From positions 1,054,001 through 1,118,000 of the forward strand of contig NZ_CP133189.1 in NCBI RefSeq assembly GCF_030913655.1: a stretch of 64,000 nt of DNA. Reading direction: 5' to 3'. Numbering within the stretch: position 1 is the first letter of the stretch; each line of letters opens with the position of its first letter. Made by a program: the position numbers and the translations under genes. This document shows, piece after piece, positions 16,796 to 18,628 of this stretch. A model generated the notes under the pieces. It saw only the letters and a program-made list of their open reading frames with translations, was not told the DNA's origin and ran no database searches. Origin of the DNA: Clostridium sp. MB40-C1. Lineage in GTDB: Bacteria; Bacillota; Clostridia; Clostridiales; Clostridiaceae.

Positions 16796-16835
16796 AAACC
16801 CTATGTTAGTTTAATAAGTAATATAGGGTTTGTTA
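16796..16835 (+). terminator. probable terminator after the permease gene
   Basis: 9-bp stem AAACCCTAT (16796-16804) with ATAGGGTTT (16823-16831) followed by a weak T-rich run. Confidence 0.5.
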
Positions 16836-16942
16836 GTTAAGGATGTTGTTTGCAGTAATGAAGAGGCATAAAATCTTTAATAGCTGTTTCAATTATTAAT
16901 AAGGTCTCTCAAGATGGATGTTAATTCATTTGAAGCTAAGAA

Positions 16943-17587
16943 TCACTTGATATTGTTAACATCCTTTAAAATTTTCTCAAGCTTTTCTACAGATGCAATT
17001 CGCTTATTACACTTCGCACTATCTAAACATATATGAAAGCCTATTGACTTATAATTAGCTGTTTTACAGATAGGCGAAACAAAGGCTATTTCATTTTCGC
17101 CGCCTGTACGATTGCAAAAGGTACACACATGAGTGTTATTGGAACTATAATTTGGAATTCTACATGACATACCTATGAGTTTACCATTCATATTGTAAAC
17201 TACAAATAATTTTCTAACAGATTCATCAATCCAACCTAAATACACATTTTTTGAATCTTGTGCATTTATGCTTGGTAATTTTAGTTTCTTTTCTTTTTTA
17301 AATAATTTATTAATTTGCGCATTAGTAACAGTTGGCATTCCATATACATATTTATTCAACGAAGATAAATACGTGTCAATTTGCAAGTGGTCATTTATTT
17401 TACTAATATCAAGCAGCTCTTTTTCTTCCTCAGATAAATTTGTAAAAGTACGTAATATTTTCTCATGTATATATGCTTTAGTTGCTTCAATAGTATTAAT
17501 ATCTACACAACCGGCGAAAGCATTATTTAAATCATTTAAGCATTTTTTTATATAATTATACTCATGTTTTTTTATAAAAACATTCAT
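16943..17587 (-). CDS. FusB/FusC-family elongation factor G-binding protein
   Basis: 214 residues from the ATG at 17587, after AGAGGTG; the frame is open 31 codons further but that extension does not fit the family, whose members are about 213 residues and begin near YNYI. The N-terminal half is helical. The C-terminal half carries the zinc-binding cysteines (CTFC ... SPICK ... ICLDSAKC) of the FBP_C domain. Staphylococcal FusB/FusC bind EF-G and release it from fusidic-acid-stalled ribosomes. The gene lies downstream of a CD3324-family gene on the reverse strand, with a terminator-like hairpin and a short ORF in between, so transcription attenuation is plausible. Confidence 0.85.
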   Translation of the reverse strand: MNVFIKKHEYNYIKKCLNDLNNAFAGCVDINTIEATKAYIHEKILRTFTNLSEEEKELLDISKINDHLQIDTYLSSLNKYVYGMPTVTNAQINKLFKKEKKLKLPSINAQDSKNVYLGWIDESVRKLFVVYNMNGKLIGMSCRIPNYSSNNTHVCTFCNRTGGENEIAFVSPICKTANYKSIGFHICLDSAKCNKRIASVEKLEKILKDVNNIK

Positions 17588-17706
17588 AAAATTGAGCACC
17601 TCTTTTCTAAAATATGTTGTTTTAAATTTAGGATTTGTTTTAAATTTAAAATTGTTTTTCAAATTATAGGTCATCAACAAGTTACTAAAACATAGCTTTC
17701 ACTAAC

Positions 17707-17753
17707 AAAAAAGATGATTATTATTACTCCAACTGAAAGTAACAATAATCATC
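17707..17753 (-). terminator. intrinsic terminator or attenuator before the FusB-like gene
   Basis: On the reverse strand a 16-bp stem (17738-17753 with 17713-17728, one G-U pair, 9-base loop) is followed by six T. It lies about 120 bases before the FusB-like start and after the end of the CD3324 gene, so it either ends the upstream transcript or gates entry into the FusB-like gene. Confidence 0.7.
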
Positions 17754-17782
17754 CTGATTTAAAACATACTACACATTCACAA

Positions 17783-17830
17783 TCATTTTGTTTTTGAAAC
17801 TTGTTTTAAATTAGAAATGATAACTCTCAT
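17783..17830 (-). CDS. possible 15-residue leader ORF before the FusB-like gene
   Basis: ATG at 17830, stop TGA at 17783-17785, encoding MRVIISNLKQVSKTK, ending about 30 bases before the attenuator hairpin. No convincing ribosome site is visible and the candidate promoter would leave only about ten leader bases before it, so it may be chance. Confidence 0.25.
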   Translation of the reverse strand: MRVIISNLKQVSKTK

Positions 17831-17847
17831 TGGATTGCCACAATGAA

Positions 17848-17877
17848 ATCATAACATAGTTTAAAATAAGCATTCAA
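17848..17877 (-). promoter_or_regulatory. candidate promoter for the FusB-like leader
   Basis: Reverse strand: TTGAAT (17877-17872), 18 bases, then TATGAT (17853-17848) preceded by TGT as an extended -10. Transcription would start near 17841, just after the CD3324 gene ends. Confidence 0.4.
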
Positions 17878-17891
17878 TCTAATAAATAATT

Positions 17892-18179
17892 CTATAATGA
17901 TTGTGAGCATAGAAGTTTTTCTTGACCTATTATTCTTCTTATACTTTTTTCCGACAGGTAATATTTTTGAGCTAGTTCATTAATGGTAGTCCCATCAACG
18001 TACTTTTTATAAATCTCATTATTTCTCACCTTAAGAGCACTCTTTATACCACTCTTTTCTCCCCAGGACTTATGGTTTTCATTTTTTCTGGGTATATAAA
18101 GATATTCCCCGTCCACATATTCTTGTATTATTTTAACAATTTCCTCTGGTAACACATCATGTACTTTTATATATTTCAT
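17892..18179 (-). CDS. CD3324-family protein, helix-turn-helix
   Basis: 95 residues after AAGGAG. The N-terminal part (PEEIVKIIQEYVDGEYLYIPRK) and a central SWGEKSG are typical of the CD3324 family of clostridia. The C-terminal half is a Mor-type helix-turn-helix (ELAQKYYLSEKSIRRII). It is probably a small DNA-binding protein. It follows a 31-codon leader ORF whose 3' part folds into a nested hairpin ending in a T-tract, and precedes the FusB-like gene. Confidence 0.8.
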   Translation of the reverse strand: MKYIKVHDVLPEEIVKIIQEYVDGEYLYIPRKNENHKSWGEKSGIKSALKVRNNEIYKKYVDGTTINELAQKYYLSEKSIRRIIGQEKLLCSQSL

Positions 18180-18204
18180 TTCCTTACTCCTTCGCTTTTA
18201 TCGT

Positions 18205-18306
18205 AGTATTAAAGCAAAGAATACTAAAAAGCTATGTGTTACAGAGCCTAAAACATGTACGCATTACAGCTAACTTAACAGCTTAGGCCCCAAACAAAGC
18301 ATAGCT
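18205..18306 (-). promoter_or_regulatory. nested hairpin with T-tract: putative attenuator overlapping the leader ORF
   Basis: On the reverse strand AGCTATG (18306-18300) pairs with CATAGCT (18236-18230), followed directly by TTTT; inside are TGTT/AACA (18296-18293 with 18240-18237) and GCCTAA/TTAGGC (18288-18283 with 18251-18246). A further small hairpin AGTATT/AATACT lies at 18225-18205. The 5' arm falls within codons of the leader ORF, so a ribosome stalled there would keep the terminator from forming. Confidence 0.55.
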
Positions 18307-18370
18307 GACTTTGTTGTAGTCTTTGCAAGGAGCAAGCTGATTTAGAGCTGAATGTATCAATGACCTTCAT
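18275..18370 (-). CDS. 31-residue leader peptide upstream of the CD3324/FusB-like unit
   Basis: ATG at 18370, five bases after the near-perfect ribosome site GGAGGTG (18382-18376). The peptide begins MKVIDTFSSK, contains SLQRLQQSQL and ends CFVWGLSC, with three Cys and one Trp; it has no membrane or signal character. It is too short for usual gene calling. Its last third overlaps the 5' arm of a nested hairpin with a T-tract just before the CD3324 gene. This arrangement (strong site, short ORF, overlapping terminator, resistance-type gene downstream) matches antibiotic-responsive attenuators. I know no family for the peptide. Confidence 0.6.
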   Translation of the reverse strand: MKVIDTFSSKSACSLQRLQQSQLCFVWGLSC

Positions 18371-18396
18371 AAAAACACCTCCAATACGTTACGACT

Positions 18397-18425
18397 ATTA
18401 TATCATAATTTAATTATTGGAATAA
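18397..18425 (-). promoter_or_regulatory. candidate promoter of the leader peptide unit
   Basis: Reverse strand: TTATTC (18425-18420), 17 bases, TATAAT (18402-18397). The start would fall about 20 bases before the leader-peptide ATG. Confidence 0.5.
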
Positions 18426-18628
18426 AGAGTAAGATATGATACCATTAAGTCCATCGGCTTTTATAATTGTTCCAATGATCCTTGGAGAATGATATTTATC
18501 TATAATATTTTTGATAATAGCTTATATGTATCTAGCATTAAATAGATACTAAAGTGTATAAAATGAAAGGGGGATAGATTTAGTGAGAGTTTGGTACTTA
18601 TAATACACTCTCTTACTAAAGATAATAA

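Follow-up and report, generated by a model that had tools for sequence, protein, structure and literature searches.

In ermC and cat-86, a ribosome stalled by a drug at about codon 9 (ermC) or codon 6 (cat-86) of the leader frees a sequestered Shine-Dalgarno (SD) sequence, and the output is the resistance gene itself, whereas the CD3324 leaders described here usually drive a regulator. For cplR of Clostridioides difficile, SD sequestration and induction by ribosome inhibitors have been tested (PMC10201436). The leaders of cplR, vmlR, vmlR2 and lsaA also place an ABC-F gene under the control of an upstream open reading frame (uORF), with a consensus of 3 to 4 codons and the resistance gene as immediate target; the uORFs of CD3324 leaders are longer (8 to 38 codons), their conserved RNA is another one, and a regulator usually stands between leader and protective gene. 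In toiL-topAI of Escherichia coli, stalled ribosomes on one uORF remodel the downstream ribosome binding site for several antibiotic classes (PMC12121999); its output, unlike that of CD3324, is a toxin-antitoxin system, and the likeness meant here is one of mechanism. The whiB7/wblC systems of Actinobacteria, in which a uORF-controlled leader governs a transcription factor for resistance to ribosome-targeting antibiotics (PMC7157823 and PMC11550727), resemble the CD3324 locus in placing a regulator behind a uORF leader, although the parts are unrelated. The proteins differ: WhiB7 serves a large regulon and is controlled through a Rho-independent terminator, whereas for the Mor-like CD3324 control appears to be exerted mainly at the SD, with the candidate operator next door. 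In phage Mu, a dimer of Mor recognizes a pair of 5-bp inverted repeats in Pm, centred at -43.5 (PMC4390567), and the candidate CD3324 operator likewise has 5-bp half-sites at a similar place; unlike Mor and C of Mu, CD3324 has 95 aa and is cellular.

We analysed a stretch of 64,000 nt from Clostridium sp. MB40-C1 (NZ_CP133189.1; hereafter the window, whose positions serve as coordinates), where the minus strand carries, in order, a leader promoter, a uORF, RNA arms, a CD3324-family gene and a FusB-family gene. We give a probability of about 0.7 to the explanation that the leader is a uORF-ribosome switch, in which a stall would open the CD3324 SD and CD3324 would then activate the fusB promoter. 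Of its parts, a conserved ribosome-dependent switch before CD3324 is likely on comparative grounds, SD opening by a stall near codon 8 to 10 is the mechanism in closest agreement with the computations, and activation of the next gene by CD3324 is what we infer from the protein family and the putative operator. The working principle is known, and the RNA family is unmatched in Rfam 15. Searches of open-licence papers found no description of CD3324 or of a link between it and genes for ribosome protection; among the matches listed there were analogues only.

Organization of the leader region

The leader promoter has an extended -10 box, TGATATAAT (18397 to 18405; all features of the locus are on the minus strand), and a TGNTATAAT box is present in 29 of the 30 aligned FusB-linked leaders. 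The SD site GGAGGTG (18376 to 18382), of a kind that precedes most of the compared family uORFs as an SD-like stretch, is followed by a uORF of 31 codons, MKVIDTFSSKSACSLQRLQQSQLCFVWGLSC (18275 to 18370), whose start codon is invariant in all 30 leaders. The RNA arms comprise a 5' part of arm A (A5'; TTGCTCC, 18329 to 18335), whose partner is arm B or the CD3324 SD, the arm A core GCAAAGACTAC (18316 to 18326), whose partner is arm B or arm C, arm B itself (CTTTGTTTGGGGC, 18287 to 18299), and arm C (GTATTCTTTGC, 18214 to 18224), which pairs with the arm A core or, together with the following bases, with the SD region of CD3324 (AAGGAGTAA, 18184 to 18192). This SD region is closed in the predicted folds. 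A further helix with a large loop, B:B' (18230 to 18306), joins AGCTATG (18306 to 18300) to CATAGCT (18236 to 18230), TGTT (18296 to 18293) to AACA (18240 to 18237) and, innermost, GCCTAA (18288 to 18283) to TTAGGC (18251 to 18246); a short U-run, TTTTT (18226 to 18230), whose length differs among loci, lies 3' of it.

The sequence-only reading of this DNA had described a TATAAT-type promoter, the GGAGGTG site, a 31-codon ORF, the B:B' stem and a T-tract before CD3324, and all are present as described. The 5' arm of the stem (18306 to 18283) does lie inside the leader ORF (18370 to 18275), and both elements are conserved in relatives, the uORF start in 30 of 30 leaders and most stem pairs in 28 to 30 of 30, with the weakest listed pairs in 24 to 27. 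The third competing arm (18224 to 18214) and a second promoter after CD3324 were absent from that reading.

Comparative evidence for competing folds

Folded alone, the 221-nt leader is not significantly stable (z = -1.47; 16 of 200 shuffles were equally stable), so the comparison across relatives had to decide. With duplicates removed, 132 of 155 loci were compared. The FusB-linked alignment holds 30 of 32 loci, leaving out the distant L095 and L040, a CD3324-FusB locus in whose 269 nt upstream no leader of this type was seen. Most upstream regions share one layout, consisting of the uORF, arm A (about GCAAAG), arm B, arm C (about CTTTGC) and the CD3324 SD. Arm A can pair with either B or C, in mutually exclusive folds, and arm C can alternatively pair with the SD. 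For a group of 37 leaders, RNAalifold predicts A:B plus a short helix of arm C with bases at the SD, and for the 30 FusB-linked leaders it predicts A:C with A5':SD, with B:B' nested within A:C.

In those 37 leaders, the covariation score of each exclusive fold lies above all 500 shuffles. The P1-P2-P3 fold has 96.3% of cells paired and 26 double-change cells versus 6.6 in shuffles, and the A:B fold has 94.0% and 32 versus 11.9, counts that are inflated by relatedness among the sequences. On all five measures the P1-P2-P3 fold beats 500 of 500 shuffles; the A:B fold does so on three, and the other two are reached by 1 of 500. When the partner is shifted by 1 to 3 columns, pairing falls from 94 to 96% to 22 to 56%. 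Own and swapped arms were also compared in 20 mutually dissimilar leaders chosen from 107, where the permutations matching the own pairing numbered 0 of 5,000 for A:C, 0 for A:B, 6 for C:SD and 22 for A5':SD; comparative support for the predicted C:SD and A5':SD pairings is weaker than for A:C and A:B. Covariation in aligned leaders, which the sequence-only reading proposed to look for, is thus present for the exclusive folds of the 37 leaders, but the FusB-linked group itself varies little, with two double-changed pairs in its RNAalifold prediction, and support there was therefore taken from the wider family. By eye, the FusB-group uORF stretch CATTCAGCT.TAA also looks complementary to TTAGCTGAAATG in the loop that follows arm B (window 18360 to 18250), and this possible pairing would enclose and lengthen A:B.

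A covariance model, R1, built from the 37 leaders, none of which is FusB-linked, matches the window leader with 49.7 bits (E 1.1e-7), which is its sole match in that genome at E ≤ 0.01, and has matches in 95 of 206 family genomes. No Rfam 15 model matched the window or 10 related loci above its gathering threshold, and a relaxed threshold gave chance-like microRNA matches only. By these comparisons, the leaders form a large RNA family, with a uORF and a predicted switch before CD3324-family genes in Clostridia and some Bacilli.

The uORF and its peptide

In the 107 loci with a good A:C match, found by a scored arm search in place of a first regular-expression search that misassigned several loci, the uORF has 8 to 38 codons, and the distance from its start codon to arm A varies little, being 41 nt in 29 loci and 44 nt in 28 others. 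All three reading frames occur across arm A (in 77, 19 and 11 of the 107 loci), which makes the RNA, and not the end of the peptide, the conserved element. Peptide conservation, a further check named in the sequence-only reading, is accordingly seen only in part in the alignments: several 1-nt indels in the FusB group shift the 3' half of the peptide. In the FusB-group uORF, most changes at codons 2 and 3 are synonymous, while those at codons 4 and 9 alter the amino acid, which leaves it uncertain whether the peptide is under selection. LVI or FIE is encoded near codon 8 to 10 of some family leaders and may resemble IFVI of ErmCL. Inspection by eye showed no clear rule linking the uORF peptide to the resistance class.

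Ribosome position and predicted opening of the CD3324 SD

In the switch that we favour, the CD3324 SD would be closed by C:SD, with arm A held by B, when the uORF carries no ribosome or has been completed; A:C plus A5':SD would be an alternative closed state. A ribosome stalled with codon 8 to 10 in the P site (4 to 5 in the shortest uORFs), presumably by a drug, would cover A5' and reach the border of the arm A core, and would so block A:B and A5':SD, upon which the free core would pair with C and the SD would open. CD3324, a putative activator of the Mor/C type, would then be made, bind the dyad just upstream of the next promoter and switch on the gene behind it, fusB in the window and other protective genes in other loci.

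A 30-nt ribosome footprint was moved along each uORF, and the energy needed to open the CD3324 SD was computed at each step. This covered 120 of the 132 loci, automatic placement having failed for the other 12; for some of the 120, such as the Lacrimispora and the L144, L164 and L167 rows, the uORF or arm picked by the program is open to doubt. The cheapest footprint had its leading edge -6 to +9 nt from the arm A core in 102 of 120 loci, versus 29 of 120 shuffled leaders and 32 expected if uniform, and the bin of 0 to 3 nt held 67 real versus 4 shuffled leaders. Relative to the free leader, the opening energy dropped by a median of 2.5 kcal/mol versus 0.7 in shuffled leaders. Over 107 loci, the median opening energy was 5.9 kcal/mol in the free leader, 3.3 at the optimum, 7.0 with the ribosome at the start codon and 7.7 at the stop codon, and the optimum placed codon 8 to 10 in the P site in 71 loci, which suggests a productive stall near these codons. 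Some loci remain at 5 to 9 kcal/mol even at the optimum, and in equilibrium folding with blocks at four positions only, the SD was mostly closed in every state, that with a ribosome on arm A included. The profile of the window leader is shallow: the free leader needs 8.1 kcal/mol, and the lowest value, 5.3 at codon 18, lies close to those at codon 10 (5.4) and the start codon (5.6), so the stall model rests on the family, not on the window leader.

Ribosome-mediated attenuation, as first read from the sequence, holds in so far as a translatable uORF overlaps mutually exclusive folds, but the read-out that the data favour is a predicted opening of the CD3324 SD and not relief of a terminator, although a transcriptional component may add to it. 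A terminator had been placed at 18226, and we regard as unlikely a transcription attenuator in which the helix ending at 18230 and the U-run form the terminator and A:B acts as antiterminator under an early stall or stopped translation. B:B' is kept in the 30 aligned FusB-linked leaders, shares bases with A:B and is followed in many of them by a U-run of at least 4, and PMC10201436 describes combined transcriptional and translational attenuation in the cplR leader. However, B:B' is not a compact GC-containing hairpin with a firm U-run: a mechanical terminator scan (loop of 3 to 8 wanted) makes no call at 18226, the loop has 31 nt, and the U-run of 5 is uneven among loci (CTTCTT in L026 and GCATTTT in L036). 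The 37 other leaders keep the pairing of A, B, C and SD with no B:B'-like helix in their consensus, and a stall that masks A5' would favour B:B', which is the wrong sign for induction. The short and uneven U-run and the predicted nesting of B:B' in A:C together favour SD opening over terminator relief.

The same pairings could also act with the opposite sign, with A:C plus A5':SD as the only closed state and A:B as the open one, so that the regulator would be made when the uORF is untranslated, through an initiation block or any early stall. RNAalifold joins A5':SD and A:C in the FusB group, A5':SD complementarity exceeds that of swapped pairs (22 of 5,000), and the arrangement would be close to WhiB7 logic as reviewed in PMC11550727. 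We hold this to be improbable, since the 37-leader consensus has A:B together with the arm C helix at the SD bases, the SD is mostly closed in equilibrium folding of the leader without a ribosome, and the median opening energy with a ribosome at the start codon is no lower than that of the free leader (7.0 versus 5.9 kcal/mol).

The CD3324 protein and its candidate operator

The CD3324-family gene (17892 to 18179; 95 aa) encodes a Mor-like helix-turn-helix protein, which scores 118.9 bits against NF040785 (cut-off, 65) and 34.7 bits against Pfam Mor PF08765 (gathering cut-off, 24.9). At E up to 0.001, NCBIfam and Pfam gave CD3324, Mor and a weak transposase match only, and no WhiB-type domain. 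The AlphaFold monomer model has a mean pLDDT of 82.5 and a pTM of 0.54, and its helical C-terminal half is the part that Pfam assigns to Mor. With this model, Foldseek placed Mu C (9l0x) first among PDB structures (E 0.033, probability 0.99) and Mor at rank 6, with no match below E 0.03. A profile search of PDB sequences gave GerE (0.0069) and Mor (0.036), and CD3324 had no match in a phage collection at E 1e-5.

A conserved site, with the consensus ATTAATACAGAATTATTTATGAGATTGAA in the 65 loci scoring at least 24 of 29, lies after CD3324; in the window the candidate operator is ATCATTATAGAATTATTTATTAGATTGAA (17873 to 17901), a partial dyad. Scores of at least 24 occur in 65 of 132 loci versus 1 of 132 mononucleotide shuffles, the other 67 falling below 24, and since the matrix was drawn by eye from these same loci, the scores favour them. 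The distance to the -10 box is not part of the matrix, and among 14 spacings tried, the motif ends 19 nt from the best -10 box in 44 and 18 nt in 15 of the 65 loci. The site adjoins, on the upstream side, a TTGAA at the -35 place, and a terminator-like hairpin sometimes stands between CD3324 and the operator. Left half-sites are mostly CAGAA or CATAA, and right half-sites, reversed, are AATAA, CATAA and others, so the dyad is only partial. A dyad-like site at a fixed distance from the -10 box fits binding and activation of the Mor type, and is suggestive only. A wide CD3324 regulon in the same genome was considered and set aside, as up to 3 mismatches gave 27 sites versus 15 for a reversed control; three sites have at most 2 mismatches, namely that of the window, one beside a CD3324 remnant and one other. 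The second belongs to L002 (1500 to 1700), outside the window, where a C-terminal remnant of CD3324 precedes first a U-run hairpin and then an orphan operator-like site with 2 mismatches.

The predicted fusB promoter has the -10 box TATGAT (17848 to 17853) with TG in front. An intrinsic-terminator-like hairpin (17711 to 17755) in the predicted fusB 5' UTR is the only such site called by the scan in 16800 to 18600, where 0.7 are expected in shuffles. With its own predicted promoter, a candidate CD3324 site and this hairpin, fusB may not require read-through from the leader. The 5' UTR (17830 to 17711) holds a possible second uORF, MRVIISNLKQVSKTK, which has a relative in L030, beside the hairpin with its U-run, and the two may form a second attenuator. 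The FusB/FusC-family gene probably starts at an ATG (16943 to 17587), chosen from the sequence, and not at the TTG (17680) of the listed ORF. Its protein has the EF-G-binding N domain and the treble-clef C domain, both above cut-off (Pfam EF-G-binding_N, 93.5 bits; FBP_C, 36.6 bits), and none of the NCBIfam models for the FusB/C/D/F resistance alleles reaches its curated cut-off, the best being FusF with 76.5 bits versus 435.

Distribution and gene neighbourhoods

FusB relatives were found in 19 of 98 and CD3324 relatives in 58 of 147 genomes searched; the scan of named genomes kept the best 80 of 162 CD3324 relatives. CD3324 lies just upstream on the same strand in 13 of the 19 FusB genomes and close by but divergent in three more (G018, G030 and G058). 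A plasmid collection yielded five CD3324 records, and among four examined, one has CD3324 followed by FusB/FusC. By clustering, the first same-strand gene after CD3324 is FusB in 32 of 117 cases. Among 79 non-FusB neighbour proteins of at least 120 aa, with near copies removed, 8 match ABC-F models at 1e-40, and a representative lies above the curated cut-off (410 versus 380 bits). Vat-, CatA- and AAC(3)-like neighbours (E 5.7e-76, 3.3e-60 and 3.1e-59) each fall below their curated cut-offs. Other neighbours are APH-like and RsgA-like, many are GNAT, MBL-fold and DUF1062 proteins of unassigned target, and some look non-protective, such as a chemoreceptor in L081 and an M23 peptidase in L090. 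Of 65 upstream neighbours scanned, none is ABC-F and one is Vat, among the 25 of 43 families listed. In Lacrimispora and relatives (L162 to L177), one protein cluster follows CD3324 in 10 loci, and its representative, from L169, belongs to DUF1062 and also gives an S4-like match. In L175, the gene after CD3324 encodes an RsgA-GTPase/RNHCP protein, probably an enzyme linked to the ribosome.

The covariance model fetched 29 loci, some of them from the training set. CD3324 lies within 30 nt after the leader in 26. In one of the remaining three CD3324 is broken, and in two, L211 and L221, the leader stands directly before a catA-like gene without CD3324 (E 5.4e-61 and 7.4e-59, below the curated cut-off). 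In L079 and L088, CD3324 stands between the leader and the CatA-type gene. A translation inhibitor as the natural signal, which the sequence-only reading had tied to FusB, thus gains from the neighbour genes, which point to ribosome inhibitors, but specificity for fusidic acid is not supported, since the same leader type stands before ABC-F, Vat-, CatA- and AAC(3)-like systems. A riboswitch for a metabolite or tRNA, to which the uORF would be incidental, would explain a strong conserved alternative structure before many different genes, and is very improbable given the lack of an Rfam 15 match in the window and 10 related loci, a tight spacing from uORF start to arm A that a ligand riboswitch does not need, and neighbours that include many ribosome-protection and drug-modifying families.

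Significance

We lean somewhat towards the broader view that the CD3324 leaders are one RNA-switch family serving as a general translation-stress sensor of Bacillota. A stall caused by any drug at a set distance in the uORF would arm a Mor-like activator, which would be coupled, species by species, to protective genes such as those for FusB, ABC-F, Vat-, CatA- and AAC(3)-like proteins, and would sometimes be bypassed, the switch then acting on the resistance gene itself. Among the GNAT, DUF1062, MBL-fold and kinase-like genes under the same control there may be protective functions as yet unnamed.

If this holds, a small-protein family named only after a locus tag would gain a function, and a structured RNA family unmatched by Rfam 15 would be added to those described. 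There would be a second lineage, besides Actinobacteria with WhiB7, in which a transcription factor stands behind a ribosome-stall sensor, and the genes found behind this leader and operator would be candidates for defence against ribosome-targeting compounds.
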